Part shown: in pieces, positions 3,537 through 52,700 of the stretch
Layout: each line of letters begins with the position of its first letter
How positions within the stretch are numbered: the stretch's first letter is position 1
Assembly: GCF_001579945.1 (NCBI RefSeq)
Contig: NZ_CP011971.1
Coordinates: 2,788,030 to 2,852,029 of the forward strand
Source of the DNA: Steroidobacter denitrificans
GTDB lineage: Bacteria > Pseudomonadota > Gammaproteobacteria > Steroidobacterales > Steroidobacteraceae
DNA: 64,000 bases
Direction of reading: 5' to 3'
The notes under the pieces: model-generated
Seen by the model: the letters and a program-made list of their open reading frames with translations, nothing else
What the model was told of the DNA's origin: nothing
Database searches by the model: none
Position numbers and translations under genes: made by a program

Positions 3537-3589
3537 GCTCACGTCCCTGAGCTCGTCCCCCTCGAGTTCACGCCGCTGAGCTCATAGCC
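3532..3589. repeat. Four imperfect 14-15 bp tandem copies of a CTGAGCTCA-like unit
   Basis: Copies of CTGAGCTC(A), or the variant CTCGAGTTCA, start at 3533, 3547, 3561 and 3576, giving a period of 14, 14 and 15 bases. The first copy contains the stop codon of the SH3-domain gene. The array fills most of the 91-base gap between this gene and the convergent DUF885 gene. The core TGAGCTCA is self-complementary, so local hairpins are possible, but no T-run follows. Confidence 0.6.
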
Positions 3590-3627
3590 GCGCCATCGTA
3601 GGAGCTGCCGACAACCATCGCCCGGAT

Positions 3628-13026: not shown

Positions 13027-13842
13027 TCAGTGGAACCATGCGCCGCAATTGACGCCGATACTCTGGCCCGTGACGGGCCTGCTGAGATCCGATGCAAGAT
13101 ACAGCACCGTCCCCGCAATCTCCTCCGGTCCGGGTATGTAGCCCAGACGGTACTCCCCGGCAGTCATGACCTTGTACATTTCCTCGTAGGAAAGACCCCG
13201 CGCGTCGCCCATTCCGGCGACATAGGCCTTCACGTCGTCGGCCATGATCAGGCCGGGATGCATGGCGTTGACCCGGATGCCCATAGGCGCAAGCTCGACA
13301 GCCAGCGAGCGCGTCACGCTCGCCAGCGCCGCCTTCGATGCCGCATAGGCCGCCATGCAGGGTTCCGGATTCCAGGCCTGGGTACTATTCACCAGTATGA
13401 TCCTGCCGTTGCCGCTTTCGCGCAGATGCGGCACGAGCGTACGCACCACTGCCAACGCGCCGAAGAGATTGACATCCATGACCTTGCGCCAATCGGCGAA
13501 ATCGGCGGCAACGATGGGAGCCGGCTCTCCCATGTAGAAGGACGTAACGACAAGAATATCGATGCGCCCGAATGCCTCGTTGCTGCGGTCAGCCAGGCGC
13601 CTGCACTCCTCCGGCTGCGAAACATCCGTCGGTACGCACAATACCCGGCGCCCGCGCGTTTCGACATCACGAGCCACTGTCTGCAGCACCTCCGCACGGC
13701 GAGCCGCCAGCACGATATCGGCGCCCGCCTCCGCCATCAGCAGGGCGCTCGCACGGCTCAGCCCTGTGCCGGCGCCGACGATGACCGCCACCTTGCCATC
13801 CAGCAACGTCGTCGAATGCGCACTCATAGCGGACGGAGTCAT
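13027..13842 (-). CDS. Short-chain dehydrogenase/reductase
   Basis: The 271-residue SDR has the nucleotide-binding motif VAVIVGAGTGLSRASAL, the acidic cue AARRAEVLQTVARDVETRGR consistent with NADP preference, NVNLFGAL-type helix start (MDVNLFGALAVVR), Ser in VNSTQAWNPEP and the catalytic YAASK. ATG 13842 overlaps the stop of the upstream DapB-like gene as ATGA, indicating translational coupling; an alternative ATG is at 13827. It is the last gene of the minus-strand run that begins near 21.6 kb with the corrinoid methyltransfer genes, so its substrate may be linked to that pathway (inference). Confidence 0.85.
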   Translation of the reverse strand: MTPSAMSAHSTTLLDGKVAVIVGAGTGLSRASALLMAEAGADIVLAARRAEVLQTVARDVETRGRRVLCVPTDVSQPEECRRLADRSNEAFGRIDILVVTSFYMGEPAPIVAADFADWRKVMDVNLFGALAVVRTLVPHLRESGNGRIILVNSTQAWNPEPCMAAYAASKAALASVTRSLAVELAPMGIRVNAMHPGLIMADDVKAYVAGMGDARGLSYEEMYKVMTAGEYRLGYIPGPEEIAGTVLYLASDLSRPVTGQSIGVNCGAWFH

Positions 13843-14957
13843 TGCGGCCGATACAATCCGCGTCCGCTGAGCAACGGCAGGTCCAGTGCCGAGATCACGC
13901 CGGGTTTTGCGGCGCACACAGCAGGAATGGCATTGACCAGACGCGTGCCGGTCGCGAGGATTCCGCCGGAATGATGGTCGTCGTCCGGCCCCACGCAGAT
14001 CATGTGGCATCTCATACGGGGATCGCCGTCGACATCCACATAATAGCCCGGACCATACTCCCCCTGCGGCCACTGCGGTGCCGTATCGGGACGAAGCCGG
14101 GTGATGTGCTCCAGGACGATCGCCTCGCGTCCTTCGACGAGGCCGCACAGCTGGAATCGGAAGGCGTCGGCGGTACCTTTTTCGATCCTGCCCAGGCCTT
14201 TGACCTCGTAGGTCCGCTCGGCCGGATGACGCCACACGCGTTCCTCGATCCGATCGAGCACGACCCCGAGACCGCGAGCAACCAGGCTCACCGGCCCTCC
14301 CCATACATATGTCAGGCGGCCGGGTGCGAATAGGATCGGTTGATAGCTCATCGGCCGGCCGAAGCCAAGTACATCCCCCATGATTTTCTCGGTCTCATTC
14401 GGCAGATAGGTCGAATAGTCGAGAATTTCCTGAACTCGAATAGAGCGCCAATATTGGCTGATCCCCGTGATCGTGAGCGGCAAAGTATCGCTCATGAACC
14501 CCGGCTCGATCCCGGAGGTAAAATAGGATGCCCCGCCGCGGATCGCCGCCTCATCCAGCTGCTTCACCAAGCCTTTGTCAGGGTGGGCCAGCGGGTCGAC
14601 CATTCCGACGATCGAACTGCTGACCACGTTGGTGCCCGCTTCCAGAAAACGGCAGTGAACCTCAGCCATCCATTGTTCTCGACCGTCGCCGCCTGCTGCC
14701 GAGGACAGACAATCCACCTGCAGTCCGAGCAGATCGTCGATACTGTCGGTGGCGCGGATACCGGTTCCGATGTCGAGACCGGCCAGTTCGCCCGCATCGC
14801 GTCCGACCTTGCTTGGATCGTGCACCCAGACGCCAGCCAGTTCGAGTTCCGGATGCTCGATGATTGCTCGCAGCGCGAAGTGCCCGACGAACCCCGTACC
14901 GAACTGAATGACTCTCGTCTTCCTTGTACTCGAAGCCCCCTGTCCCGCTCGCGACAT
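13839..14957 (-). CDS. DapB-like NAD(P)H-dependent dehydrogenase (dihydrodipicolinate reductase-fold)
   Basis: A 372-residue protein with an N-terminal Rossmann segment VIQFGTGFVGHFALRAIIEHPELEL and a second domain with SGIEPGFMSDTLPLT. This arrangement is that of the DapB-like dehydrogenases that include 2,4-diaminopentanoate dehydrogenase and are often labelled amine dehydrogenases; they are longer than true DapB. ATG 14957 is preferred to the upstream frame extension. It lies 37 bases after the TonB receptor stop and overlaps the SDR by four bases. A role in reducing or oxidising a product of the neighbouring methyltransfer pathway is inference. Confidence 0.7.
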   Translation of the reverse strand: MSRAGQGASSTRKTRVIQFGTGFVGHFALRAIIEHPELELAGVWVHDPSKVGRDAGELAGLDIGTGIRATDSIDDLLGLQVDCLSSAAGGDGREQWMAEVHCRFLEAGTNVVSSSIVGMVDPLAHPDKGLVKQLDEAAIRGGASYFTSGIEPGFMSDTLPLTITGISQYWRSIRVQEILDYSTYLPNETEKIMGDVLGFGRPMSYQPILFAPGRLTYVWGGPVSLVARGLGVVLDRIEERVWRHPAERTYEVKGLGRIEKGTADAFRFQLCGLVEGREAIVLEHITRLRPDTAPQWPQGEYGPGYYVDVDGDPRMRCHMICVGPDDDHHSGGILATGTRLVNAIPAVCAAKPGVISALDLPLLSGRGLYRPQ

Positions 14958-14994
14958 GACCGCCCCTCCTCTGAGTGCCGCCGGCTTGCCGGCA

Positions 14995-17295
14995 TCAAAA
15001 TTTGAATCGGCCTTCGATACCGATCGTGCGCGGCTCCGAATAGGGCGCCGCCTGCGAGAAATATCCGTCAATAGCCGTACCCACGCTGATGACGAAATCC
15101 TTGTGGCGATCGTCGGTCAGATTCTTTCCGTACAGCGACAACTCCATCATTTTGCCGCTGGCCAGCGGACTCGTCAGGGTGAGCCGTGCATCCAGGAGCC
15201 GCGTACTGTCGTTACGAAAGAAATTACGACCGGGCACGATCGGTCCGGCGCCCGCCATCGTGAAGAACGATTCCTGATACTTGTATGAGGCATGCGCACT
15301 GAATGCCTTTGCGCCGAGTTGCAGGAATTGCCAGTCCGCCGACAGCGAAAACGCCTGCTCGGGCAGGAAGGGCAGTACGAAATACGCGGTCACGTCGTCT
15401 CCGACCTGCACCGGGGAACCAGGATTGAGGGCCGGATCGAAATTGGTTCCAGCCGGGGCATGGATGGATTTCAGCTTGGGGTCGAGATAGGTATACGAGG
15501 CGATGAAGCTAAGATCGGCTACTGGCTGTAAAACGGCCTCGAGCTCGAATCCTGAGACCGTTGCCTTACCCGCATTGCTGGTCGCAACGACCGAGACATC
15601 GCTCGGATCGGCGACAAAATCCAGCTGGAGATCGTCGAATTCGTTGCGAAATGCCGCCATATTGAGGGTCAGCATACGATCGAACAGCTGTGACTTCAGC
15701 CCGAGTTCATAGCTGGTGACCTTCTCCGGCCCATAGGTCGCCGTGAAATCCGGACCGCCCTCAGCCGAGCCGCCGGCCTTGTAGCCCTTCGACATCTTTA
15801 CATAGGTCATCGTCTGCGGCGTCCACTGCATCGCGAGGGTGACCGCCGGACTGGAGTTCGAAAATTTCTGGTCGTTGGCGACGCCGACATCGACCGGGTA
15901 GCCGTTCATCCGAAGATCCCGTGTAGCGTCACGCTCATCGCGCGTATAACGCCCACCCACGGTCACCTTCAGTCGATCCTCGAGCACAGGCGGCGTCCAA
16001 GTCGCCTGCAAATAGACCGCTTTCGAGGTCGACTTCGCGGCAACCAGACGATCTCCGTCCACAGAGGTATCAAGAAGCAATAGGCCGATATCCTGTAATT
16101 GCCGATGCCGGCCCTTCTCGCGAAAATAGTACAAGCCGCCCGTGTACTCGATGCGTTCACCGATTTCTCCGATCAGTTGAAATTCCTGGGTGAACTGATG
16201 GGTTCGATAGTTGTGAGACTGTGCAACCGTGGTCGGGAAGAATGGATTCGACAGTGCAACATCGAAATTGACCGATTGAAAGCCGTCGAAGTCACGGTAC
16301 GAAGAGAGCGACTTGAATGTCAGCGAGTCCAAAATATCCCATTCTGCCGTCAGTTGATGATCGACGAAGATGGCTTCGCTCTCGTCCAGGTCGAGCGGCG
16401 CATAGGTACGATTCTTGCTCGCGAAGTAGCCCGGAATCACACCTTCGAGATCTGGATTCAGATAATAGGGTTGGGTCGAGGTCACCTTGCCACGATCCCA
16501 GGCATAATCGACCGTGAAGGAATCCGCAGGCGTCCAGCGCACGGCTACACGGCCGGCAAGCTGACCGAATTCGTGGTAATCGTGTGCGGCACCGCGGTTC
16601 TTGACCCAGCCATCGCGGTCGGAATAAAGAACCGTAGCCTTGATCGCAAAATCGCCGAATCGCGGCAAATCGACATCGGCGAGCGCGCGCACACTATCGC
16701 GGCTGCCGAAACTGACCGCGGTGCTTCCGCCCCACTCGCCGGTCGGTTTCTTAGTGATGATGTTGATCGCGCCGCCCGTGGTGTTGCGTCCGTAAAGCGT
16801 GCCCTGCGGACCGCGCAGAACCTCCACTCGCTCGGGATCGCCGATGTCGAACAGTGCTGCCTGGGGACGCGCGATATAGAAACCATCGATGTAGAGCCCG
16901 ACGCCCCCGTCCTTGGTAATCTGGCCCGCATCAGCGGTACCCTGACCACGCATATTGAGGGAGATGGTATCCGAGGAGTTTGGATAGGCGATGACGCTCA
17001 GGCTGGGCGCCAACTGCGAAATGCCTGCCAGATCGACGGTGCCGTGGTTGTCGAGTACTTCGGAGGATATCGCCGTGATCGCAATCGGCACCTCTTGGAG
17101 ACGCTCCGCGCGGCGCTGCGCCGTCACGATGATCTCACTGAGCACTCCCGTGCCGGTGACGGCCGCAGACCTTTGTTCCTGTGCCGAGACGGGGCTGGCG
17201 AACAAGAGCCAGTGAGCGGTACCGATCGCAAGACAGGCCTGGAGCCGACGACTCCTATCGTTTCTAAAGCCGTATATCCTTGTAATGTGATTCAT
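14995..17295 (-). CDS. TonB-dependent outer-membrane receptor
   Basis: A 766-residue receptor: signal peptide (about residues 1-38, ending PVSAQ), plug domain starting VLSEIIVTAQRRAERLQEVP, with RGQGTADAGQITKDGGVGLY and the standard EVLRGPQGTLYGRNTTGGAI, and a C-terminal beta-barrel ending in the aromatic GIEGRFKF. It belongs to the large proteobacterial group of iron-siderophore-like receptors used by environmental bacteria for many organic substrates. Its place inside the corrinoid gene run suggests uptake of the methylated substrate or of cobamide (inference); no BtuB-specific feature is visible. Confidence 0.92.
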   Translation of the reverse strand: MNHITRIYGFRNDRSRRLQACLAIGTAHWLLFASPVSAQEQRSAAVTGTGVLSEIIVTAQRRAERLQEVPIAITAISSEVLDNHGTVDLAGISQLAPSLSVIAYPNSSDTISLNMRGQGTADAGQITKDGGVGLYIDGFYIARPQAALFDIGDPERVEVLRGPQGTLYGRNTTGGAINIITKKPTGEWGGSTAVSFGSRDSVRALADVDLPRFGDFAIKATVLYSDRDGWVKNRGAAHDYHEFGQLAGRVAVRWTPADSFTVDYAWDRGKVTSTQPYYLNPDLEGVIPGYFASKNRTYAPLDLDESEAIFVDHQLTAEWDILDSLTFKSLSSYRDFDGFQSVNFDVALSNPFFPTTVAQSHNYRTHQFTQEFQLIGEIGERIEYTGGLYYFREKGRHRQLQDIGLLLLDTSVDGDRLVAAKSTSKAVYLQATWTPPVLEDRLKVTVGGRYTRDERDATRDLRMNGYPVDVGVANDQKFSNSSPAVTLAMQWTPQTMTYVKMSKGYKAGGSAEGGPDFTATYGPEKVTSYELGLKSQLFDRMLTLNMAAFRNEFDDLQLDFVADPSDVSVVATSNAGKATVSGFELEAVLQPVADLSFIASYTYLDPKLKSIHAPAGTNFDPALNPGSPVQVGDDVTAYFVLPFLPEQAFSLSADWQFLQLGAKAFSAHASYKYQESFFTMAGAGPIVPGRNFFRNDSTRLLDARLTLTSPLASGKMMELSLYGKNLTDDRHKDFVISVGTAIDGYFSQAAPYSEPRTIGIEGRFKF

Positions 17296-17325
17296 ATAAA
17301 AATTCCCCCTCTCTATCTTTATGCC

Positions 17326-18264
17326 TTAATAAAAGGCCGCCACAAGACGCTCGCATTCCTTCAGGAAGCGAGGCATCTGCTGCGGATCGTCGATGAACTG
17401 GGATGGTTTAACGGTGACAACATCGACCCCCGTCGCCACGAGAGCCGGCATACTGACCTCGATGCTGCGCGCCAGGTCCGCCGGTCGCCGGGCATCGGAA
17501 AACACGGGAAAGATGAGGCCGCTGGTCCGAAGATCGGCCATGCTGCGTCCGGCCTGCGCCATGGCCTGCGCCAGACGCGCAAGATCCTCGGGCTCCGGCA
17601 CACTCGTCAAGGTGTAGCCCTTGCCGAATTTGACGATGCGCGCGATCACTCGCGCAGTGAGGCGATCACCACCAATGATGATCTCCGGCCCGCCGGGCTG
17701 CACCGGTTTGGGATTCACGAAAACGTTCTCGAACCGATAGTGTCGACCGTAATAGCTGATCGGCGTCTCGCGCCAGGCCAGATGCATGATCTCGAGCTGC
17801 TCGTCCAGGCGATCGCCTCGCTCGTCGAAAGGCACGCCCATGGCCTCGTATTCTTCCTCCTGCCAGCCGCCTATCGGCGTCAATGTCACCCGGCCGCCGG
17901 AGATCAAATCCAACGTGGCCCACTGCTTGGCATTGAGCAACGGCGGGCGCAGAGGCGCCAAAGTTGCCGTCGCCATCAAGCGGATGCGCGAGGTCACCGC
18001 CGCAATCGCGGACAGCATCACGATCTGGCTCGGCATGTGCTGGTCTGGATGCTGATTGCCCACCCAGCGGAACGCCCGTGGATTTTCCGGCAGACCGTTG
18101 CGCGCCGAGTTGGGACCCATCACGATGTGATCGATGATGTGGATCCCGTACCAGCCGGCATCCTCGACCTGACGGGCAAAATCCAATACCCGCCGCTCCT
18201 CCTCGGGACGAATCAGCGTGTCCAATTCACTCAGGATCGCCGTCAGGCCGGGTTTATCCGCCAT
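17326..18264 (-). CDS. LLM-class (luciferase-like) flavin oxidoreductase A
   Basis: The 312-residue protein is of the bacterial luciferase-like TIM-barrel family: AGWYGIHIIDHIVMG at the N-terminus, RIRLMATATLAPLRPP, the hallmark WATLDLISGGRVTLTPIGGWQEEEY, and the C-terminal IIIGGD. Members use FMN or F420 for hydride transfer or monooxygenation; methylene-tetrahydromethanopterin reductase belongs to the same superfamily. It lies between the TonB receptor and the MtmB-like gene, 30 bases upstream of the former. A second, only distantly similar LLM protein is encoded at 20741-21619, so the cluster has a pair. Confidence 0.85.
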   Translation of the reverse strand: MADKPGLTAILSELDTLIRPEEERRVLDFARQVEDAGWYGIHIIDHIVMGPNSARNGLPENPRAFRWVGNQHPDQHMPSQIVMLSAIAAVTSRIRLMATATLAPLRPPLLNAKQWATLDLISGGRVTLTPIGGWQEEEYEAMGVPFDERGDRLDEQLEIMHLAWRETPISYYGRHYRFENVFVNPKPVQPGGPEIIIGGDRLTARVIARIVKFGKGYTLTSVPEPEDLARLAQAMAQAGRSMADLRTSGLIFPVFSDARRPADLARSIEVSMPALVATGVDVVTVKPSQFIDDPQQMPRFLKECERLVAAFY

Positions 18265-18338
18265 TATCGGTACTCGTCTGGCGCCGTGGATTTTCCTGCC
18301 GTCGATCCACCAGCCCAGGCGGAGCGACGGCCACCCTG

Positions 18339-19688
18339 CTATTCCCTGAAGGGCATGCCAAGAGCGGCGAGTTCATCGCAGGTCTGCAGCATCGCCTTCT
18401 CGTACTCGGGACGCGGCTTCACCGTGTTCACATCGTAGGCTTCATAGAACGGTAGCTGCTTGGTCTGCTGCGGCAGCAACTCATCCACCTTGCGCATGAT
18501 CTTTTGAGCCAGCTCGTTTGCACGATCCGGCGCCATGCCCGCACAGCCATTCATCATTTGACCGATCAGGCGCGCCTCGAGTCCGGTATGCCCGGCGATC
18601 CATGCATAGGAAAGACCGCTGGCGACCGAAGTGACCACGACGCCTGCCGACTGCCACAGCGTCAGCGGCGTGCGCCAGGCCTTATCGATTCCGGAAATCG
18701 ATGTACCGATGGCAAGACCGAGATGCCGCTCGGCCGCACGAGCCGCGCCACTGAAGGCCCAATGCGAGGCGCGAGTCGCCCAAGTACCATCCAGATGGCT
18801 CGGGAAATAACTCATCGAACCGGCCTTGGCATAAGAGAGCTGCCCGAGTGCATTGGCGAGCATCACCACGGCGACATCGGCTGCATCGCGGCACAAGCCG
18901 CCGATGCAGGACATGGCGCTTTGCCAGGGCTCGATGCCGGTGAGCTCGCAGTACTGCGTCAGCAGTAACGGGTTCCAGCTGAGCTTTTGCTCCGGCATGA
19001 TATGGATGCCGATCTGGGTGTTGAAGGAATCCCGATAACCCGAAGCCATTACCGACATCGTCCCGGAGGGCGTGCTCGCCGTGCACAGCAGTCCAAGATT
19101 CATGTCGAGCCGCCCGGTGCGCTTCAACGCTTCACGCAGCGCCTCCTGCTCCCAAAGCGCCACGGTCACCTCGGACAGCTGGCCTGCTTTCGGATCGAGA
19201 TTGCCGAGCCTGGCAAGACCGGGAACGATGCCGAAGCCCTTGACCGAGGGTTCCTGGGCGAACGATTGAACATAGGGAATGAACCATTCCATCTCCGCCA
19301 CGCCGGCCGGTCCACCGTAGTTCGTGGGCGCCCAAGTATCGCTGCCACGGCGATAGCGCAGCTGCATGCGCTCGGCGCCTTTACCCAGGTTCACACAGGC
19401 CGGATTCTGCTGCGACTCGCGCGCAAACTGACGTATCTCCTGCTCTTCGTACTTGATCACCCGCCCGGTGCTCTGGAAGTAAAGGCCAATCTCCGCCAGG
19501 TGCCGCACCGCCGCCTCGAAGATCGCATCGGCCGTGCGGTCATCGACCACCAGCTGCTCGGGGTCGTACTTGATCTCGTATTCGGCGACCAACTCCCGTA
19601 CCTTGAAGGCGAGCTCCAGATCGAAGTCATCGACCGCGGTCACCGGACCGCGCGAGGCACGGTGCTGGAATTCAATGCTCGGTATCAT
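18339..19688 (-). CDS. MtmB-family corrinoid methyltransferase lacking pyrrolysine
   Basis: The 449-residue protein resembles archaeal monomethylamine:corrinoid methyltransferase MtmB (about 458 residues) along its length: GLYFQSTGRVIKYEEQEI near residue 68, SHLDGTWATRASHW, HTGLEARLIGQMM and the C-terminal YEAYDVNTVKP. From remembered family sequences, the segment GRLDMNLGLLCTASTPSG (192-209) lies where MtmB has its pyrrolysine; that position is Gly199 here, and there is no in-frame TAG. Such enzymes move a methyl group from a substrate to Co(I) of a corrinoid protein. ATG 19688 overlaps the corrinoid-protein stop as ATGA. The substrate is unknown and is unlikely to be monomethylamine by the pyrrolysine mechanism. 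Confidence 0.85.
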   Translation of the reverse strand: MIPSIEFQHRASRGPVTAVDDFDLELAFKVRELVAEYEIKYDPEQLVVDDRTADAIFEAAVRHLAEIGLYFQSTGRVIKYEEQEIRQFARESQQNPACVNLGKGAERMQLRYRRGSDTWAPTNYGGPAGVAEMEWFIPYVQSFAQEPSVKGFGIVPGLARLGNLDPKAGQLSEVTVALWEQEALREALKRTGRLDMNLGLLCTASTPSGTMSVMASGYRDSFNTQIGIHIMPEQKLSWNPLLLTQYCELTGIEPWQSAMSCIGGLCRDAADVAVVMLANALGQLSYAKAGSMSYFPSHLDGTWATRASHWAFSGAARAAERHLGLAIGTSISGIDKAWRTPLTLWQSAGVVVTSVASGLSYAWIAGHTGLEARLIGQMMNGCAGMAPDRANELAQKIMRKVDELLPQQTKQLPFYEAYDVNTVKPRPEYEKAMLQTCDELAALGMPFRE

Positions 19689-20410
19689 GCCGCGGCTCCT
19701 TTGATGCGGCGGCTGTTGTACCACCAGGTATGATCGTGAGTGCGCGCTCGCGCGAGTTCCGCCGCATCGACCGGCTTGCCGCAGATATGCTGGCACAGCG
19801 GCACGGAGGCCACGGCATTCAACGCCCAACCGTCCACATCCATTGCATCGGCCTTGTCCGCCGTGCATTCGGTACCGCCGATGATCACCTTGTACTTGTC
19901 GCGCAGCCCCATGTCCTCCAGGTATCCAACCACCTCCTTGCAGTAGGGGATGGTGGTCACCAGGAACGCCGACAGTCCGATGATATCGGCCTTGTGTTCC
20001 TTGGCTTTCTCGATGAAGTGCATGCTTGGCAGATCGATGCCGAGTTTATGCACCTCGAAGCCGTTGAGTTCCAGTTGCGTGGTCACCAGTCCATAGCCGA
20101 TGGTATGCAGATCGCCCGTCACCGCGCCGATCACGACCCGCCCTTGGGCACCTTCGGCATTCGGCGGCAGATACGGATTGATGAGTTCGATGCAGGGTTC
20201 GGCCACTTTGCCGCTCATCACCAGTTCGGCAAGGAAATACTCACCGATTCCGAAGCGCCGTCCGACCTCCTGGAGTCCGGCGATCACCCCTTCCTTGAGC
20301 ATGGCCACGGGATCGACCCCCTCCTCCAGGCCCTGCTGCACCAGGTCATAGGCTTTCTTTTTTTGCAGCTTCCAGACTGCATCAAAGATTTCTTTCGGTG
20401 TCACGGACAT
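19685..20410 (-). CDS. Methyltransferase cognate corrinoid (B12-binding) protein
   Basis: A 241-residue protein with an N-terminal four-helix cap domain (residues 1-85, with FGIGEYFLAELVMSGKVAE) and a B12-binding Rossmann domain. The motif DLHTIG (DxHxxG) supplies the lower-ligand His, and VIIGGTECT supplies the GG. The central SxL motif reads SAF, a deviation. MtmC, MtbC and MttC are the nearest functional analogues: they accept a methyl group on cobalt and hand it to a second methyltransferase. The C-terminal 40 residues, with HTWWYNSRR, extend past the usual domain. It sits six bases after the DUF4346-like gene and overlaps the MtmB-like gene by four bases. Confidence 0.92.
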   Translation of the reverse strand: MSVTPKEIFDAVWKLQKKKAYDLVQQGLEEGVDPVAMLKEGVIAGLQEVGRRFGIGEYFLAELVMSGKVAEPCIELINPYLPPNAEGAQGRVVIGAVTGDLHTIGYGLVTTQLELNGFEVHKLGIDLPSMHFIEKAKEHKADIIGLSAFLVTTIPYCKEVVGYLEDMGLRDKYKVIIGGTECTADKADAMDVDGWALNAVASVPLCQHICGKPVDAAELARARTHDHTWWYNSRRIKGAAA

Positions 20411-20416
20411 TGGAAA

Positions 20417-20725
20417 TCACTCCTGCTGAAAGGGTAGGCCGTGGCGGATAGCCATCTCCGCCCGGCCGAGTTCGTATGCCAGATAGGCAAGATGCGAACG
20501 GCTCAGATCCCACTTCACCAGCATCTTGCGAATTCCGACCGTATTGCCGGTGAAGGCGACACGCGGGAGATCATCGACCATCACCGTGGCGCGTCCCCTC
20601 TTGGCGTGGATATTCGCTTCGATCACAAAACAGAATCCGGAGGCATCTTCGTCCCAGGATTCGTCGGATCCCACTTCTTCGAAAGTGAGATCGGGATAGG
20701 CCGCCTTGAGTTCATCGAGATTCAT
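20417..20725 (-). CDS. Small DUF4346-like protein of the corrinoid operon
   Basis: This 102-residue cytoplasmic protein has an acidic N-terminal half (FEEVGSDESWDEDASGF), a strand-rich centre (FCFVIEANIHAKRGRATVMV) and a C-terminal helix, SHLAYLAYELGRAEMAIRHG. That ending resembles the HAAYLGRELxRAExAL pattern of DUF4346, a domain otherwise found attached to dihydropteroate synthase-like proteins in archaeal one-carbon metabolism. I assign the family from memory of this pattern only. It is co-transcribed, with six bases between it and the corrinoid protein gene, and may bind a pterin or help methyl transfer (inference). Confidence 0.6.
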   Translation of the reverse strand: MNLDELKAAYPDLTFEEVGSDESWDEDASGFCFVIEANIHAKRGRATVMVDDLPRVAFTGNTVGIRKMLVKWDLSRSHLAYLAYELGRAEMAIRHGLPFQQE

Positions 20726-20740
20726 GCTGATGCTCCTTGT

Positions 20741-21619
20741 TTACACAACAAGTTTTGCCATGACGTTCTCGGCGTAGTTCTCCAGATAGGCGCGCTTTTC
20801 AGCCAGACTGGTCTTCGCACCGAGCGCGAATGCGAACGGCAGACTCACGGTGCCCGTCGCCCCCGCGTCTTCCAGACGGCGCAGATCGTCGATCGTGATC
20901 TTCTCGCCATAGAGCGGCACGATGGTTTCGAAAGACCGATTCAGCGTGCCAAACTCGGCGCGCAGCCGTCCAAGCTCGGCCAGTGTTTCGAGCGCCGCAT
21001 CCAGCGTCTGACCGGGGCCGATCCAGCCGTCGCCGAGCTTAGCTGCCCGGCGCAGTGCCGGCTTGCTGATGCCGCCGATCAGAATCGGGACCGGCGCCGC
21101 CGGCACCGGATTCATCATGAGGCGCGGAAAATCGAAAAATTCGCCGTGATGCTCGACGTACTCACCCGTGTAGAGCTTGCGTAGTACCTCGATACACTCG
21201 TCATAACGACGGCCGCGTGACTCCCAATCGACGCCGAGCACATCGAATTCCTCTTTCATCCAGCCGGCGCCGGCACCCAGTAGCAGCCGCCCACCGCAAA
21301 AATAAGCCACGCTCGAGGTCGCCTTGGCGACTTCGAGCGGATGACGCAACGGCAAGATGTAAACATTGGTGCAAAAACGCAGTGTCGGATTCTGTGCCGC
21401 AAGCGCTGCAGAGAGGGACCAGGACTCCGGCCAGGCCGTATCTTCGGTGAACGACGGCGGTTTGCCGTCGGCGGAATACAGATAAGTCGAGTTCTGGGAT
21501 TCCGGATGAACGAGATGATCCGAGATCAGCGCACCCTCGAAGCCCAGCTCTTCGCAGAACCGCGTCACCTCGAAGAGCTGCTCACCCTCACAAAGAAAAA
21601 GAGACTGCCAGAAATGCAA
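20741..21619 (-). CDS. LLM-class (luciferase-like) flavin oxidoreductase B
   Basis: The 292-residue protein belongs to the putative F420-type LLM family (TIGR03619-like): ELGFEGALISDHLVHPE, LRFCTNVYILPLRHPLEVAK, FCGGRLLLGAGAGWMKEEFD and PILIGGISKPALRRAAKLGDGW. It starts at TTG 21619, preceded by AGGTGA. It is the promoter-proximal gene of the minus-strand corrinoid run; a 6-bp inverted repeat lies 23 bases upstream. Whether it uses FMN or F420, and its reaction, cannot be read from sequence. Confidence 0.85.
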   Translation of the reverse strand: MHFWQSLFLCEGEQLFEVTRFCEELGFEGALISDHLVHPESQNSTYLYSADGKPPSFTEDTAWPESWSLSAALAAQNPTLRFCTNVYILPLRHPLEVAKATSSVAYFCGGRLLLGAGAGWMKEEFDVLGVDWESRGRRYDECIEVLRKLYTGEYVEHHGEFFDFPRLMMNPVPAAPVPILIGGISKPALRRAAKLGDGWIGPGQTLDAALETLAELGRLRAEFGTLNRSFETIVPLYGEKITIDDLRRLEDAGATGTVSLPFAFALGAKTSLAEKRAYLENYAENVMAKLVV

Positions 21620-21641
21620 GGTTCACCTGCCTTATGCCGCG

Positions 21642-21656
21642 GCCGGATATTCCGGC
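21642..21656. promoter_or_regulatory. Inverted repeat upstream of the corrinoid run, candidate TetR operator
   Basis: GCCGGA-TAT-TCCGGC is a perfect 6-bp inverted repeat with a 3-bp spacer. It lies 23 bases upstream of the first minus-strand gene and in the intergenic region shared with the divergent tetR-type gene at 21902. The location is right for an operator; binding is not shown. Confidence 0.4.
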
Positions 21657-21901
21657 GCACTGCCATTGATGTAGCTCGAGCACGGCCTTTATTTCGAAAC
21701 GGTACGTCTCGGCTCGGAATATACGCAGTTGCGGGAAGCGGCGTCAACAATACTTGCCAATTCCGCGCCATCAGCAGCTGGCGGGCACCCTGATTCGGGG
21801 TCGAGCCCTGCGGATTTGCCGCGTGGTCAGCCATCGCTTCGTCGCTGCCCTGGAGAATCTCGATGATCCACAGGCGGCTATTGTGGTAACGTGCGCGCCT
21901 C

Positions 21902-22573
21902 ATGACGAGCCGCAGAAGAGCCACTAGCAGCCCACTTTCTCGACAGGTTTCCAGGCAACCCCGTCGTGACATCGGTACCGATAACTCGACACGCGTAGCG
22001 GCGCGTGGTCGCCCGCGCAGTGCGCATGCGCACCAGGCGATTCTTGAAGCCACGCTCAAACTACTCGCTGATGTCGGCTACGAAAAACTCACCTTGGGAG
22101 AGGTGGCTGCTGTCGCCGGCGTAGGCAAGGCGACAATCTATCGGCGCTGGCCATCGAAGGTGTCCCTGGTCATCGAATCGTTCTTGCAGCTGCCGGCGCT
22201 GGTGGCTCCCGATACCGGCAACGTACTCGACGATCTGACCACGCTGCTGCGCAGCTTTGCACACATACTGGAGACCACTCCGCTACCGCGTGTACTGCCG
22301 ATTCTTGCAGCCGAGTGTCTGTACGATCCCGAACTCTCGAAGCTCTTCGTACCGATGGTCAACGCTCGGCGCCAGCCGTTGCTCGACGTGCTGCGCAGTG
22401 CAGTTGCCCGCCACGAACTGCCAGGAGATCTCGACCTCGAAGCAGCTGTCGACCTGATCGTCGGACCGATCATTACGCGGTTGCACTTTAGCGCCCGACC
22501 CGTACGCCCTCGTGATATCCGCCCCTTCGTCGAGGCTGCGCTCTACGGTATCCATCGTCTGCGCAGACCCTAG
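21902..22573 (+). CDS. TetR/AcrR family regulator
   Basis: The 223-residue regulator has a helix-turn-helix domain at about residues 38-85 (ILEATLKLLADVGYEKLTL, then GEVAAVAGVGKATIYRRWPSK) and a helical ligand-binding domain. TIYRRW is a common recognition-helix form. It is divergent from the minus-strand corrinoid genes and upstream of the plus-strand activation genes, so it probably controls both. The N-terminal 37 residues are Arg/Ser-rich and may indicate an over-long start. Confidence 0.88.
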   Translation: MTSRRRATSSPLSRQVSRQPRRDIGTDNSTRVAARGRPRSAHAHQAILEATLKLLADVGYEKLTLGEVAAVAGVGKATIYRRWPSKVSLVIESFLQLPALVAPDTGNVLDDLTTLLRSFAHILETTPLPRVLPILAAECLYDPELSKLFVPMVNARRQPLLDVLRSAVARHELPGDLDLEAAVDLIVGPIITRLHFSARPVRPRDIRPFVEAALYGIHRLRRP

Positions 22574-22802
22574 GCAGCACTTCCTCCATCCAGCGTAGTT
22601 CGTGATCAAATCTACGAGCAGCATCTTGCTGCGCATGCGCGACGCAGCGCCGGTTCAGGATATCGAATTCTGCTTCTCCCGAACCTGCTCCGGGGATAAT
22701 TTCAACGACGGCGATTGACGCCGCCGCCATAGCCCCGGTATAGTTTTCGAGACTCATAGACTCGTAAATACCTGGATTCCTGAATACCGAGGAGTACGAG
22801 CG

Positions 22803-23303
22803 GTGCATGGCGACGCTTCGGCAGTCCGAGACCGAACCAGAGATGCTGAGCGTGAAGCTGTTCGAGCTGTGCTGGCCGAATTCGGCGACACGATCGAGTT
22901 GCGGCTTCTGACAACGACACTACAACAAACCCTGGGTTACGTCCCACCGCCGGCGGTGCCGCTGCTGGCGGAGAAAACCGGCCTGGAACGCGCCCAGGTG
23001 TTCGAGTTCATAGAATCCGATGCACAGCTGTCATTCAAACCGCCGGGGCGCCATCGCGTGGCAATCTGTCTGGGTAAGAATTGCAGCCAACGGGGAGCGG
23101 CAACACTGGCCGAAGAGGCGATGCGTACACTCGGCATCGATTCCTTCCGGGTCACTGCGGATTTTGCCGTACGCCTCGAATCCTTCTACTGCTTCGGCCG
23201 GTGCAAGGACGGTCCCAATGTCCTCATCGACGAGGAGATCCACGGAACCATGACCTCTGCAAAACTCACCGAGCTGCTCCGCGGCGTATTGGCGACCGGT
23301 TGA
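22803..23303 (+). CDS. NuoE-like 2Fe-2S thioredoxin-fold protein
   Basis: A 166-residue protein of the NADH dehydrogenase 24-kDa (NuoE) family: an N-terminal helical part with LGYVPPPAVPLLAEKTG and a thioredoxin-like ferredoxin with the four ligands in CLGKNC (C-x4-C) and CFGRC (C-x3-C). It starts at GTG 22803, nine bases after GAGGAG. No NuoF partner is present in the window. It lies 3 bases upstream of the ASKHA activator, which has its own ferredoxin domain, so it may feed low-potential electrons for corrinoid reduction (inference). Confidence 0.85.
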   Translation: MHGDASAVRDRTRDAEREAVRAVLAEFGDTIELRLLTTTLQQTLGYVPPPAVPLLAEKTGLERAQVFEFIESDAQLSFKPPGRHRVAICLGKNCSQRGAATLAEEAMRTLGIDSFRVTADFAVRLESFYCFGRCKDGPNVLIDEEIHGTMTSAKLTELLRGVLATG

Positions 23304-23306
23304 GCC

Positions 23307-25280
23307 ATGACAAAATCCGGTACCACGGAAAGTTTCGAGGTCTGTTTCCTGCCGGCAGGACTGCATGCCGTCGTGCCTGGGGGTACGCCGCTCAGGGATG
23401 CGGCCCGCCTGCTCGGTGTCGAGATCGAATCCCTCTGCGGCGGCCGCGCCTCCTGCGGCAAATGCCTGGTACGGGTACTGGAGAGCGAGGCCGGCGAGGA
23501 CGGTCTGCATTCGCAGGCGGCGCACGTCTCGGAGCTTAGCGATGCGGAACGACGTGCCCGCGCTGCCGGAAGGCTCGGCGATCAGGAACGCTTCTCCTGT
23601 CAGGCGTGCGTGGAAGGTGAGCTCGTGATCTATGTTCCCGAGGCGAGCCGCGTGGGACGACCGATCGTGCGTAAGCGCGCCGGCGAGCGTGAATGTGCGC
23701 TCGCCCCTGCCATCCGCAAGTATTTCGTCGAGATCGAGCTGGCAACAGTCGGCGAATCGCGCGGCGATTGGGATCGCCTGCAGGAAGAACTGTGTGTTCG
23801 ATTCGGACTCGATAGGAATCTAGCGGTCGATCCGCTTGCACTGCGCACGCTCGCCGAAGCGCTGCGTGGCGGACGCGGCCGACTCACGGTGACGGTATGG
23901 CAGGGGCGGGAAGCGATTCGCTTCGAGCCCGGCTTCAGCGAGCGCGTGCTCGGCCTGGCGGTGGATCTTGGCACGACGACGCTTGGCGCCCTGCTCTGTG
24001 ATCTGCAAAGCGGTCAAGTCGTCGCACAGGCCTCGGCTCACAACCCGCAAATCCGCTGGGGCGAGGACATCATGAACCGCATCGCGAGCGCTAAACCACC
24101 CGGACAGCTCGCAGCCATGCAGCAGGCGGTTGCCGAGGCGATCGGTGAGCTCGCACGCGATGCGACACTGGCCATCGATGCAAAGCCAGATGATGTGGTC
24201 GAAGTCGTGGTCGTCGCCAATACAGTCATGCATCACATCCTGCTCGGTCTCGATGTGCACTCCCTCGGGGTGGTACCTTTCTCGCCGACGCTGAGCCGCT
24301 CACTGGATGTGAAGGCGCGTGACCTCGGCATTCCGATACTGCCCTCTGCGAACGTGCATCTGCTGCCGATCGAGGCGGGCTTCGTGGGTGCGGATAACGT
24401 CGCCGCCATGCTCGCCGCCGCTCCGCATGTTTCCGAGGAGCTGACGCTGCTGATCGACATCGGTACGAACGGCGAGTTGGTGCTCGGCAATCGCGACCGG
24501 CTGCTCTCGGCCTCCTGTCCCACGGGACCTGCGCTCGAAGGCGCGAATATCCGCTTCGGCATGCGTGCTGCCCGCGGCGCGATCGAAAAGATCCGAGTCG
24601 ATCCGGCGACACACGAGGTGCGCTTTCGCACCATCGGCGTGCCACGCTGGAGCGATCGGCAGCCGCCCGAGGAGATCGGCGCGCGCGGCCTGTGCGGATC
24701 GGCTGTGCTGGAGGCTGTCGCCGAACTGGTCCGCGCCGGCCTCATCGACAGCACCGGGCGTCTGTATTCCGAGCTGCCCTGTCGGCGCCTGCGCCAAGGC
24801 ACCGACGGCATGTGGGAATTCGTGATCGCCTGGGCCGAGCAGACTGTCATCGGTGAGGATATCACGCTCACCCAGGCGGACGTGCGCGCCATCCAGCTTG
24901 CCAAGGCGGCCCTCTACGCCGGCAGCCGCCTGCTGCTCGAGCGCTTCGGCGCCGAACAGCCTGACCGTGTAGTGTTGGCGGGCGCTTTCGGCAGTGTGAT
25001 CGATCTCGAACGGGCGCTGGCCATCGGTCTGTTCCCCGACTGCGGCCTCGATAATGTGACCGCTGTCGGCAATGCCGCCGGCGATGGCGCGCGCATGGCG
25101 CTCCTGAACGTTACATCGCGTCAGGAAGCGGAACTCCTGGCACGGCGGGTCGAATACCTCGAACTTTCGACGGCACGTGGTTTCAACGACGCCTTCGTCG
25201 CGGCCACGCAGCTGCCGCATGCGGAAGATCGCTTCCCCTCGACCGAGACACGCTGGTCGCCGAAGGCGGCCGCGGGTTGA
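23307..25280 (+). CDS. ASKHA-type reductive activator of corrinoid proteins (RACE/RamQ-like, DUF4445)
   Basis: The 657-residue protein has an N-terminal plant-type 2Fe-2S domain (SLCGGRASCGKCLVRV, with a fourth Cys in FSCQAC), a linker, and a C-terminal ASKHA ATPase-like domain (GLAVDLGTTTLGALLCDL; TLLIDIGTNGELVLG; VVLAGAFGSVIDLERALAIG). This is the architecture of proteins that reduce inactive Co(II) corrinoid to Co(I) at the expense of ATP for O-demethylases and methylamine methyltransferases. It follows the NuoE-like gene with a 3-base gap. Its presence supports functional, oxygen-exposed corrinoid chemistry at this locus. Confidence 0.93.
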   Translation: MTKSGTTESFEVCFLPAGLHAVVPGGTPLRDAARLLGVEIESLCGGRASCGKCLVRVLESEAGEDGLHSQAAHVSELSDAERRARAAGRLGDQERFSCQACVEGELVIYVPEASRVGRPIVRKRAGERECALAPAIRKYFVEIELATVGESRGDWDRLQEELCVRFGLDRNLAVDPLALRTLAEALRGGRGRLTVTVWQGREAIRFEPGFSERVLGLAVDLGTTTLGALLCDLQSGQVVAQASAHNPQIRWGEDIMNRIASAKPPGQLAAMQQAVAEAIGELARDATLAIDAKPDDVVEVVVVANTVMHHILLGLDVHSLGVVPFSPTLSRSLDVKARDLGIPILPSANVHLLPIEAGFVGADNVAAMLAAAPHVSEELTLLIDIGTNGELVLGNRDRLLSASCPTGPALEGANIRFGMRAARGAIEKIRVDPATHEVRFRTIGVPRWSDRQPPEEIGARGLCGSAVLEAVAELVRAGLIDSTGRLYSELPCRRLRQGTDGMWEFVIAWAEQTVIGEDITLTQADVRAIQLAKAALYAGSRLLLERFGAEQPDRVVLAGAFGSVIDLERALAIGLFPDCGLDNVTAVGNAAGDGARMALLNVTSRQEAELLARRVEYLELSTARGFNDAFVAATQLPHAEDRFPSTETRWSPKAAAG

Positions 25281-25298
25281 CTGCGCAGCGGCTGTCCC

Positions 25299-26033
25299 AT
25301 GGATAATCTCTTGCAGGGCATGAGCGCTTCGGCCGAGTTCGACGAAGTAAGCCGCCTCATCGGCTATCCTTCACCCGAACGGATGAGTGAGCCCGTGCGG
25401 GAGATGTGTCTGCAGCAGCTCGTCCGCCTGCCGTCGCTATGCGAACCTTGGGGCACGTGGCGCGACTTCGAACTGCGCTCGGCACACCAAGATGGCATCG
25501 AACTCGCAGGGGGGCTGCAACTCATCAGCCGGCGGCTTGCAAAGCTGATGCGCAAGGCTCGGACCATGCGGCTATTCGTGGCCACACTCGGCGAGGCTGT
25601 ATCGCGGGAGATTCAACATCTCGTGCATGACGCCTGCATGCTCGAGGCGATGGTGCTCGATGCCGCCGCCACCGCGGCCGTGCATGCGCTCACGGAGAAT
25701 CTCATCCGGCGCACCTGCGACGAGGTTCAGCAGCGCGGTCTCGGCACCACCACCCGCTATGCTCCAGGCTATACGGGCTGGAATATCGGCGACATTGGCG
25801 TGCTGTTCGCGACGCTGGAGTGCGAACACATGCCGGTGCAACTGAATGCCCAGCTCATGATGCGCCCGGAGAAGTCCCTGCTGTCGATCGTCGGCCTCAC
25901 CGACGACGGCCACATCGCGGCACCACTCGAACAATGCCGTGGCTGCGATCTCATTCATTGCAGCGCCCGTAAAGCCCCCTACCTGCCGCGCCCCCGGCGC
26001 GGCTTATCACCCCTGCGGAATACCTGTCCATGA
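25299..26033 (+). CDS. MetH-activation-domain-like protein (SAM-dependent corrinoid reactivation)
   Basis: The 244-residue protein resembles a free-standing B12-dependent methionine synthase activation domain (PF02965 type). It has [19 protein letters not shown], the [16 protein letters not shown] helix, and RYAPGYTGW, corresponding to the SAM-contacting RPAPGY loop of E. coli MetH, then [13 protein letters not shown]. Near the C-terminus is a Cys cluster, CRGCDLIHC, often seen in the stand-alone family and perhaps an Fe-S site. MetH uses this domain to re-methylate Co(II) with SAM and an electron. It overlaps metK by four bases (ATGA), which supports SAM use. Confidence 0.8.
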
Positions 26034-27217
26034 GCAGCTATCTCTTTACCTCCGAATCCGTCTCCGAAGGTCATCCTGACAAGGTGTCCGATCAGATTTC
26101 GGATGCCATTCTCGATGCGATTCTCGCCCAGGACCGCCACGCGCGCGTCGCGGCGGAAACCCTCTGCAACACCGGATTGGTGGTGCTTGCCGGGGAAATC
26201 ACCTCCAACGTGATCGTCGACTATCAAACGATCGCTCGCGAGACGATTCGGGACATCGGCTACGACAATACCGACTATGGCATCGACTATCGCGGCTGCG
26301 CGGTGCTGGTAGCCTATGACCGCCAGTCCAGCGACATTGCCCAAGGCGTCGATGAAGGCCGCGGACTGGATCTGGAGCAGGGCGCAGGCGATCAGGGCCT
26401 GATGTTCGGCTATGCCTGCTCGGAAAGTCCGGCGCTGATGCCCCTGCCGATCCATCTGGCCCATCGCCTGGTCGAGCGCCAGGCCGAACTGCGTAAAAGC
26501 GGCCGACTGCCCTGGCTGCGTCCGGATGCAAAATCCCAGGTCACGGTACGCTACCTAGACGGCCGCCCGAGCAGTATCGATACCGTGGTGCTGTCCACTC
26601 AGCACGCACCGGAGATCTCGCATGCCGAGCTTTCGGAAGCGGTGATCGAGGAAATCATCAAGCCCGTACTGCCGAAGAAGTTGCTCGGCAGCGGTGAGGC
26701 GCGCTATTTGGTGAATCCCACGGGGCGTTTCGTGGTGGGCGGTCCGCAGGGCGACTGCGGGCTCACCGGCCGAAAAATCATCGTGGATACCTATGGCGGG
26801 GCCGCACCCCACGGCGGCGGCGCCTTCTCCGGGAAAGATCCTTCCAAGGTCGATCGCTCGGCCGCCTATGCGGCGCGCTATGTGGCCAAGAACATCGTGG
26901 CGGCGGGGTTGGCCGAGCGCTGCCAGGTACAGATCTCCTACGCCATCGGGGTGGCACGCCCGACCAGCGTGATGGTGACCACCTTCGGCACCGGAGCGGT
27001 GCCGGATGAGCGCCTGGAAGCACTCGTCGCGGCGCACTTCGATCTGCGCCCGAAGGGTATCGTGCAGATGCTCGACCTGCTGCGCCCGATCTACCGCAAG
27101 ACGGCCGCCTACGGGCACTTCGGGCGTACCGAATCCGAGTTCACCTGGGAGAAAACGGATCGCGCCGCAGCCCTGGCCGCCGCCGCCGGAATCGAGCGTC
27201 GTGACTCGGTACCATAG
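26030..27217 (+). CDS. metK: S-adenosylmethionine synthetase
   Basis: The 395-residue enzyme makes SAM from methionine and ATP. It has [19 protein letters not shown] at the start, [12 protein letters not shown], and [19 protein letters not shown], all MetK signatures, and normal length. Its start overlaps the upstream activation-domain gene as ATGA, so the two are translationally coupled. That placement suggests a dedicated SAM supply for corrinoid reactivation, or a link between the released methyl group and methionine/SAM (inference). Whether the genome has a second metK elsewhere cannot be seen. Confidence 0.95.
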
Positions 27218-27525: not shown

Positions 27526-29232
27526 CTACACGGTGATCTTCTGCAACAACTCCAGTGCGCGCTGTTGTTTCGAGTTCGCGGTGGTCACCGCGGCGAACGT
27601 GGATGTCGACTCGCCGGGCAGCGCGGCGCGGCAGGTATTTCGCACGATCGTGGACAACTCCGCCAGGAGCGTTGAGAAGCTGTGGGCGGGCGTTGCGTCG
27701 GGAAGCCGACCCGTCAGGGCTTTGCGTTTCGCGGCCTCAGAGCGCTTCGCCGGCGCCACCGGATCGCGCGTGGCTTTGGCGGCCTGGTCTTCGTCCGCAA
27801 ACAGCAGCTCGCGCCAGGCTTCGCGCATGTGCCATTCGATGTAGTAGGCCAGTACGCACAGCAGGATATGTGCGCGTACTCGCTCGGCGAGCCGATGATG
27901 GATCGGCCGGATGCGCAGATCCACGCTCTTCAGCGTTCGGAACGCGCGCTCTACTTGAGCCAACGATTTGTATTGGCGCACGCATTCGGCCGCGTCCATG
28001 ATCTGGGCCGGGACGCTGGTGCGGATGACATAGAGCCCATCGAGGCGGGCTTCGGTTTCGATACCGTCGGTCTTGCGCTCGAAGCCGAAGAGATCCTCGC
28101 GGATATCGAGTGCGAAGTGCTTGGCCATCTTGTATTGATTGACTATGCGGCCAACCCGCACACCGATGTTATCTTGGCCTCGCAAGCGCCCCTTGGCCAC
28201 GGACGCGCGGATCTTCTCGAGCTGCTTTTCGGTGGCGCACAACAGCTCTTCGCGCTTGTGTGCGCGCAGTTGCGCGAGCGCCGGGTTACGGCAGGCAACC
28301 AGGCGTTCACCGGGATAATCGGGGTGCTCAAGCTCGAACAGATTGCGCTCGTCGAACAGATCCAACTGCACATGTCCCTGGTTCACCAGCGTGCGGATGG
28401 AGGTGCTCTTGAGCGCGGTGATCCAGCGTACGCCTTGTTCATTCGTCAACGTATGGATGGCTTTCTGGGAGATCATGCCGCGATCACCCACCATCACCAG
28501 CTGCTCGACCCCAAACTCCTGCTTCAGCCGCGCGATTTCCGGCATCAGCGTTTGCGGGTCTGAGGTGTTGCCCTCGTAGACCGATACAGCGACCGGACAG
28601 CCCCGGCGGTCGGTGAGCAAGCCGTAGTTGACCTGCAGCATCCCCCGCTTACCGTCGCGGCTGTAGCCGAGTTTCGCCAGCGGGCAGGTGGTTCCCTCGA
28701 AATAGCTCGACGACAGGTCGTAGAGCACTACGCTGTCGGGACCCAGATGCCGCTGGGCCAGCTTTTTCTGGATCGCGCCCTGGCGCTCGAGCAGCCAGTC
28801 CATGGCGGCGTAGAGTTCCGTCTCGCTCGCATCCGCCACGCCGAAGTCCTGCGCGAGGGTGGTGGTGTGCCACCAGCGGGTGGTGGCGAGCTTGGTGCGC
28901 GGGCAGAGCACCCGGGCGGCCAGCATGGCCAGCACCAGATCGCGTTCGCGTGAGGGCTTCGTGCCCAGCAGTGAACTCAGGCGCAGCTTGGTCATGGCCA
29001 GGCGCACCGCCTCGACGTGGCCGTGTGCCTGCGATCCCACGACGTTGAACAGCGTCTGGAGTGGGTACAGGGGCTCACCCTTGAGAATCGCGCGCAAGGC
29101 ATGGATCTGCTCATCGGTGAGGCTGGACAAGTTCGCGATCGTGCGCTTCCTGACCGTGTTTCCCTCGCGGAACGTCTCGCGCAGCAGGTAGGCGGGGCGG
29201 GACTTACGGTTGGGTACAACATCGATATGCAT
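27526..29232 (-). CDS. IS1634 family transposase
   Basis: The 568-residue DDE transposase matches the IS1634 (IS4-group) type: HIDVVPNRKSRPAYLLRETF at the start, VVLYDLSSSYFEGTTCPLAK with the first Asp, LVMVGDRGMISQKAIHTL with the second, and SLAQVERAFRTLKSVDLRIRP carrying the C-terminal Glu, then the IHHRLAERVRAHILLCVLAYY helix. Length is full and no frameshift is seen, so the element may be active. ATG 29232 lies about 145 bases inside the right end. Confidence 0.93.
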   Translation of the reverse strand: MHIDVVPNRKSRPAYLLRETFREGNTVRKRTIANLSSLTDEQIHALRAILKGEPLYPLQTLFNVVGSQAHGHVEAVRLAMTKLRLSSLLGTKPSRERDLVLAMLAARVLCPRTKLATTRWWHTTTLAQDFGVADASETELYAAMDWLLERQGAIQKKLAQRHLGPDSVVLYDLSSSYFEGTTCPLAKLGYSRDGKRGMLQVNYGLLTDRRGCPVAVSVYEGNTSDPQTLMPEIARLKQEFGVEQLVMVGDRGMISQKAIHTLTNEQGVRWITALKSTSIRTLVNQGHVQLDLFDERNLFELEHPDYPGERLVACRNPALAQLRAHKREELLCATEKQLEKIRASVAKGRLRGQDNIGVRVGRIVNQYKMAKHFALDIREDLFGFERKTDGIETEARLDGLYVIRTSVPAQIMDAAECVRQYKSLAQVERAFRTLKSVDLRIRPIHHRLAERVRAHILLCVLAYYIEWHMREAWRELLFADEDQAAKATRDPVAPAKRSEAAKRKALTGRLPDATPAHSFSTLLAELSTIVRNTCRAALPGESTSTFAAVTTANSKQQRALELLQKITV

Positions 29233-49310: not shown

Positions 49311-49320
49311 GAACCAATAA

Positions 49321-49395
49321 TACACCCATTTACACCCATTTACACCCATTTACACCCATTTCAACAGGCGGCAGAATTGGGTGTAAATGGGTGTA
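49321..49395. repeat. TACACCCATT tandem array plus inverted copy upstream of fic
   Basis: Four perfect copies of TACACCCATT occupy 49321-49360. After 14 bases, 49375-49395 is an inverse complement of two units. The block lies between the divergent fic and zinc-ribbon genes and can form a hairpin or serve as a multiple-site operator. Confidence 0.85.
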
Positions 49396-51013: not shown

Positions 51014-51036
51014 GGTCCGGAATACGCAACAGTAAG

Positions 51037-52624: not shown

Positions 52625-52700
<76 letters not shown>

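Follow-up and report, generated by a model that had tools for sequence, protein, structure and literature searches.

The 64,000-nucleotide stretch of the Steroidobacter denitrificans genome analyzed here (contig NZ_CP011971.1, positions 2,788,030 to 2,852,029; hereafter the window) contains at 13027-27217 a cluster of 13 genes that is very probably the emtABCD estrogen methyltransferase locus of this species, together with its activation and S-adenosylmethionine (SAM)-supply genes. The genes form two divergent, operon-like sets, with a minus-strand set on the left and a plus-strand set on the right, and not the facing sets described in an earlier note on this DNA. Read from 21619, the leftward set encodes an LLM oxidoreductase, a 102-amino acid protein, a corrinoid protein, an MtmB-family methyltransferase, a second LLM oxidoreductase, a TonB receptor, a DapB-like dehydrogenase and a short-chain dehydrogenase/reductase (SDR), and the rightward set, read from 21902, encodes a TetR regulator, a NuoE-like ferredoxin, the activator RACE, a 244-amino acid protein and the SAM synthetase MetK. 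Nearly all domain calls of the earlier note, namely the SDR, the TonB receptor, both LLM proteins, the MtmB-like and corrinoid proteins, the NuoE-like ferredoxin, the activator and MetK, are borne out by the Pfam and NCBIfam matches given below. The genome itself is a single contig of 3,467,246 bases and is given as 100% complete.

The EmtA-like methyltransferase (18339..19688, minus strand) belongs to the MtmB family (PF05369, 133.5 bits) and is the single match to that family in this genome. It aligns with MtmB1 (1l2q_A; phmmer E 2.1e-20), and the pyrrolysine column of MtmB1 (X) falls on Gly199, a residue that is invariant across 10 aligned sequences, including that of the window. No in-frame stop is found in the gene (18339-19688), and its absence, together with glycine at the pyrrolysine column, excludes a pyrrolysine enzyme. 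The adjoining EmtB-like corrinoid protein (19685..20410, minus strand) contains PF02607 and PF02310 and scores 148 bits with TIGR02370, under the 215-bit cut-off of that model. Next comes the 102-residue EmtC-like protein (20417..20725, minus strand), which had been called DUF4346-like; the gene is there, and the family match is sub-threshold, since PF14251 (DUF4346) covers 27 residues at its C-terminal end with 20.6 bits against a Pfam cut-off of 29.6, and about the same residues are matched by the MtrA model with 17.6 bits against a cut-off of 568 bits. The protein has no match in the PDB at E 5, its structure model (mean pLDDT 40.9) is too poor for use in any search, and its counterpart at the corresponding position in L011, a contig that also encodes an EmtA relative, is 75% identical.

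In the rightward set, the NuoE-like thioredoxin-fold [2Fe-2S] ferredoxin (22803..23303, plus strand; PF01257, 90.1 bits), the ATP-dependent reductive activator RACE (23307..25280, plus strand) and the 244-residue protein, which resembles the MetH reactivation domain (25299..26033, plus strand), make up a three-gene activation cluster beside the methyltransferase set (22803-26033). RACE, with Fer2 and RACo/ASKHA parts, is the ASKHA activator of the earlier note and is RACE/RACo/AcsV-like by its matches to PF14574, PF17651, PF17650 and PF00111; it scores 411 bits with the AcsV model (cut-off 800) and 82 bits with the RamA model (cut-off 500). MetK (26030..27217, plus strand; PF02773, PF02772, PF00438) is a second SAM synthetase, the other copy, which the earlier note did not mention, lying at G000:C1:453515-454678 and being 84% identical to it. 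None of SAHase, SHMT, MTHFR and MetH is found among the 13 cluster genes.

The discovery paper of emtABCD in Denitratisoma is reportedly that of Wang et al. (2020). The genes constitute the estrogen methyltransferase system of Denitratisoma sp. DHT3 and D. oestradiolicum, in which EmtA is related to MtmB and is made without pyrrolysine, EmtB is the proposed corrinoid binder, EmtC has no known relatives and EmtD resembles oxidoreductases (PMC7448270). According to the same report, a three-gene activation cluster with RACE and SAM-regeneration genes that include MetK are found near emtABCD, several of the latter lying near emt in D. oestradiolicum, whose genome holds second copies of C1 genes; the methyl group passes from SAM to cobalamin and on to C10 of estrogens, with androgens as the products; and genes similar to emtABCD are stated to be present in S. 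denitrificans, described as a denitrifying estrogen degrader (PMC7448270). Induction by estradiol has been shown in Denitratisoma. A role for emtA has been confirmed by gene disruption, with emtABCD reported missing from steroid degraders unable to use estrogens (PMC12507874). The window cluster has the same make-up, with a pyrrolysine-free MtmB-like EmtA, a corrinoid EmtB, a small protein, an oxidoreductase, a three-gene RACE cluster and MetK, and the presence of two metK copies is in line with the C1 genes of D. oestradiolicum, which also occur in second copies. The cluster is, almost certainly, already known. What is gained is a correction: for genes to which the earlier note gave an unknown substrate and an open methyl acceptor, the substrate, donor and direction have been published, with SAM as donor and estrogen as acceptor (PMC7448270), and we infer by analogy that substrate and direction would be the same here as in Denitratisoma. 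The system is the reported start of estrogen breakdown without oxygen in denitrifiers, and it converts one sex hormone to another.

The host fits this assignment. The earlier note took it for apparently aerobic, and an aerobic host is rejected in view of four matches above cut-off to the cytochrome-d1 family in this genome, an NnrS gene in the window (39574-40806) and the reported anaerobic growth and nitrate reduction of S. denitrificans DSM 18526, whose genome is given as 3.5 Mbp with 61.9% GC (PMC5979037). The four cytochrome-d1 matches fit a denitrifier, as does NnrS, although the family alone is no proof of a nitrite reductase, one of 14 control genomes also passing the cut-off. At about 81-93 kb of the genome lies a HIP-type cluster for the steroid C/D rings, in which a CoA-transferase subunit (IpdA-like) matches 6co6_A at E 1.4e-71 and two of the 10 proteins scanned reach an NCBIfam cut-off (EchA20- and FadA6-type models). 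GC content ranges from 57 to 65% across the window in blocks of 4 kb and is 62.9% for the genome stretch at 60-100 kb. Three acyl-CoA dehydrogenase genes of the pathway are listed for DSM 18526 as ACG33_00340, 00345 and 00360 (PMC5380842), and such low tags suit the position of the HIP cluster, assuming that tags run from the start of the record in steps of five.

Several points weigh against the assignment. The comparison with Denitratisoma is one of gene content and published description; EmtC is assigned by position, and the first LLM gene is a candidate for EmtD by position only; metK is the only SAM-regeneration gene of the window cluster, whereas D. oestradiolicum has several nearby; and the NuoE-like ferredoxin has no significant homologue in the loci of the relatives. 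Moreover, MtqB, a homologue of MtmB without pyrrolysine, demethylates the quaternary amines tetramethylammonium and choline (PMC13044021), so membership of the MtmB family alone fixes neither substrate nor direction. This last point favors the proposal of the earlier note, a catabolic demethylase that moves a methyl group from a methylated substrate onto cobalt, and MtmB, corrinoid and RACE components are indeed typical of demethylating systems; the corrinoid methyltransfer with corrinoid rescue that the note described stands, in that the MtmB-like protein, the corrinoid protein and the reactivation module are all present. Its direction is not supported. In Denitratisoma the same genes serve methylation, from SAM to C10 of estrogen (PMC7448270), metK lies behind the activation genes, the host fits the reported estrogen degrader, and no stand-alone pterin methyltransferase accompanies the cluster. 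On these grounds a demethylase of an unknown compound is rejected as very unlikely.

The pterin methyltransferase was searched for with the pterin-binding protein of contig L012 as query in seven genomes with EmtA-like genes. Two of them, G569 and G570, the latter of which supplied the query, have matches of stand-alone size (264-304 codons), and the other five, this genome included, each have a single match, which lies in an open frame as long as MetH (1,175-1,346 codons). For this genome the sole match lies in a frame of 1,270 codons at 1.43 Mb, in agreement with the observation of the earlier note that no folate methyltransferase is seen, and none would be expected because SAM is the methyl donor. 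The same search bears on whether the locus could run in the androgen-to-estrogen direction, removing the C19 methyl group from androgens in the manner of AbeABC from Phosphitispora, which is reported to be 57% identical to EmtAB (PMC12507874). Demethylation of 1-dehydrotestosterone has been measured in Denitratisoma extracts (PMC7448270), which would agree with such a reversal. An AbeABC-type folate route near an EmtA homologue, for which we took a stand-alone pterin methyltransferase as the sign, was not found in this genome, and the window cluster has metK and the MetH-reactivation-like gene in its place. Where a pterin methyltransferase gene does lie close to EmtA-like genes, between two of them in contig L010 and one gene away in L012, the EmtA-like proteins are 44-53% identical to that of the window, and we consider an androgen-demethylating role extremely unlikely.

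A methylating system acting on a different phenol or another steroid has a small chance of being the right description, given that related clusters occur in MAGs (metagenome-assembled genomes) labelled Myxococcota and that one of these, L007, carries two emtA copies, so that the range of substrates may be wider. For this genome, the single MtmB-family match and the estrogen degradation published for the species (PMC7448270) argue for estrogen instead.

The point that the window adds to the estrogen methyltransferase, and one that can be tested, concerns the third activation gene, 25299-26033. Its 244-residue product is a stand-alone protein like the MetH reactivation domain and a candidate SAM-binding subunit; phmmer aligns it with 1j6r_A, the MetH activation domain protein TM0269 of Thermotoga maritima, at E 1.2e-4, and a three-member profile of the family finds the same structure at E 4.2e-4. 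Searches of Pfam at E 0.001 and of NCBIfam at E 0.01 give no match for it, so that membership of a Pfam family is rejected, and the MetH-activation-like call of the earlier note survives as a weak likeness supported by the structural relative. The segment RYAPGY at residues 153-158 fits RXXXGY, which we take to be the SAM-site pattern of the MetH reactivation domain; RXXXGY occurs in two of the three family members, the arginine being missing in L027, and all three members end in a conserved CxxCxxxxC. The structure model has a mean pLDDT of 49.5 and stays below 50 over residues 146-244, the motif included, and a Foldseek search with this low-confidence model lists 1j6r_A first at E 2.7e-3, followed by six chains with the cobalamin and reactivation domains of Thermus methionine synthase, all of them weaker than E 0.001.

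In the same seven genomes, a long match to the 244-residue protein was found in three, namely this genome, the source of the query, and G567 and G568; in G568 the homologue lies directly behind RACE, as in the window, and in G567 (contig L008) it adjoins RACE on the opposite strand. G571 has a weak partial match (E 3.4e-4), and G566, G569 and G570 have none. With the weak match set aside, five of the seven genomes hold one of two proteins, the 244-residue one or a stand-alone pterin methyltransferase; no genome holds the two together, and the remaining two genomes lack both. The six genomes other than this one are MAGs and possibly incomplete, so this split is a lead only, and G570, which has an EmtA 70% identical to that of the window (L011) and no 244-residue protein, speaks against a strict link between the two.

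By the title under which it appears in the reference list of PMC7857596, TM0269 is required for reactivation of its methionine synthase, which leads to a modest reading in which the 244-residue protein would likewise serve the rescue of cob(II)alamin. A bolder reading, which we put forward tentatively and as somewhat doubtful, is that it is the SAM-docking subunit of the system, binding SAM and methylating the cob(I)alamin of EmtB at each turnover. If this were so, a MetH domain used only for rescue would have been turned into the main entry port for methyl groups, the clusters would divide into SAM-fed methylating ones with the 244-residue protein and folate-linked demethylating ones with the pterin methyltransferase, and the SAM-fed Myxococcota clusters would extend estrogen or phenol methylation beyond the three known denitrifiers. 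The main text of PMC7448270 contains neither "activation domain" nor "ferredoxin", and among the papers listed by a literature search, which did not include the emtABCD discovery paper, we found no earlier mention of methionine synthase activation in emt-type clusters. The recognition of a stand-alone protein of the MetH-reactivation type as the product of the third activation gene is new here, with the proviso that the discovery paper may already describe it.

The distribution of EmtA is patchy. Among named genome contigs, 43 stretches matched the search pattern and eight encode EmtA relatives, none of them from Denitratisoma: three in Deltaproteobacteria MAGs, labelled Myxococcota in the tree (74%, 75% and 70% identical), one in an unclassified bacterium MAG (68%), one in a Desulfobacteraceae MAG (52%), two at further loci in two of the MAGs already counted (44% and 46%), and a 105-residue piece, 92% identical, in a MAG labelled Planctomycetota. 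In a tree of 11 rows the EmtA of the window pairs with that of L008 (support 98/96). Closer to home, matches were found in three of 200 genomes of the family of S. denitrificans, this one included, the other two being less than 30% identical; in none of the 13 genomes listed for the genus; and in two of 369 genomes of the class sample, namely this genome and one with a weak match containing four stops. Among 399 genomes from the family of G422, which encodes an IpdA-like protein of 76% identity, there were two weak matches (E 3.2e-4 and 8.9e-4); the family of G442 gave none in three genomes, plasmids gave none, and four pattern matches in viral contigs included no relative. Such a patchy spread suggests horizontal transfer. 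Of the synteny that was proposed as a check, the grouping of MtmB-like, corrinoid and activator genes is found in relatives; contig L008, 6.7 kb long, carries EmtB, EmtA, RACE and the MetH-reactivation-like gene.

Some of these contigs have features of their own. In L007 (107-6008), from a Myxococcota-labelled MAG, the two emtA copies, which share 80% identity, are accompanied by homologues of the second LLM, DapB-like and first LLM genes, an arrangement closely related to the window cluster but found outside Pseudomonadota. L014 (1-3662), from the Planctomycetota-labelled MAG, begins in the 92% identical emtA piece and continues with a TonB receptor and a DapB-like gene, both only 33% identical, and is possibly a mis-binned proteobacterial contig. 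A short open stretch before emtC in L011 (8623-8757), whose translation by eye resembles the start of the first LLM protein, looks like a shortened emtD-like gene in the same order. In L013 a glycyl-radical enzyme of the pyruvate formate-lyase type (2538-5138) is divergent from an adjoining pair of EmtA-like and corrinoid genes.

Of the remaining genes in the leftward set, the first LLM-class flavin/F420 oxidoreductase (20741..21619, minus strand) and the second (17326..18264, minus strand) both exceed the TIGR03619 cut-off of 166.9, with 184.5 and 177.6 bits, and both have homologues in L007, the former 56% identical and the latter, immediately behind emtA, 70% identical. A match above cut-off to CofD, of F420 biosynthesis and the sole F420 enzyme searched, is present at G000:C1:1236560-1237465, with three of 14 control genomes also passing, and on this basis the two LLM proteins may really use F420. 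The TonB-dependent receptor (14995..17295, minus strand; PF00593 and PF07715) would be suited to steroid uptake. The DapB-like dehydrogenase (13839..14957, minus strand) is better named 2,4-diaminopentanoate-dehydrogenase-like (PF19328, 40.5 bits; NF040740, 93.6 bits, far under its 400-bit cut-off), and homologues lie near emtA in L007 (59% identical) and L014 (33%). The SDR (13027..13827, minus strand; PF13561 and PF00106) reaches the cut-off of no NCBIfam model among the best 25 of 232 matching, and a hydroxysteroid role is presumed. Between the divergent sets sits the TetR regulator (21902..22573, plus strand; PF00440 and PF16859), absent from the text of the earlier note, a homologue of which, 59% identical, adjoins emtCBA in L011. 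We found no convincing palindrome common to the upstream regions of both sets that could be a shared operator, and an Rfam scan of the window at gathering score returned tRNA only and neither a cobalamin nor a SAM riboswitch; two cobalamin riboswitches occur in the genome, both outside the window.

Beyond the cluster, the next gene after metK encodes a DDE transposase (27526-29232), and after it come a short RidA-like gene and one for a GMC oxidoreductase. Farther along, a Fic protein, a resolvase and tRNA-Phe (48261-52700) mark a possible mobile island, and an EgtB-like (FGE-sulfatase and DinB_2) and EgtD-like (Methyltransf_33) pair at 53117-55492 is possibly for ergothioneine synthesis.

Put together, the genes suggest a route in which estrogen would enter through the TonB receptor, MetK would make SAM, and the methyl group of SAM would pass to cob(I)alamin on EmtB. 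EmtA would present the estrogen, methylcob(III)alamin would methylate C10 of ring A to give an androgen, and the androgen would be degraded further by the 2,3-seco and HIP pathway. Accidental oxidation to cob(II)alamin would be reversed by reduction through the NuoE-like ferredoxin and ATP-dependent RACE. The natural electron donor of the emt system was named as open in PMC7448270, and the window offers candidates both for this supply, in the NuoE-like ferredoxin, and for delivery of SAM to the corrinoid, in the MetH-reactivation-like protein.

Set beside known systems, the window cluster departs from emtABCD as described in having metK as its only adjacent SAM-regeneration gene and perhaps also in the genes behind emtA, which encode the second LLM oxidoreductase, the TonB receptor, the DapB-like protein and the SDR. 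With MtmB, MtmC and RamA of methanogens it shares the PF05369 family, a corrinoid partner and an activase of the RACo/RamA kind, but it has glycine in place of pyrrolysine, and its methyl source is likely SAM rather than an amine. The 244-residue protein is like TM0269 (1j6r; E 1.2e-4) in being a separate protein of the AdoMet-binding domain type, and differs from it in adjoining RACE within a steroid methyltransferase locus and in ending in CxxCxxxxC. AbeABC of Phosphitispora sp. TUW77, reported to share 57% identity with EmtAB, is also a cobalamin methyltransferase with the C19 methyl group of steroids as its target, yet it works in the opposite direction, delivering the methyl group to the Wood-Ljungdahl pathway (PMC12507874), whereas the window cluster is without a stand-alone pterin methyltransferase.

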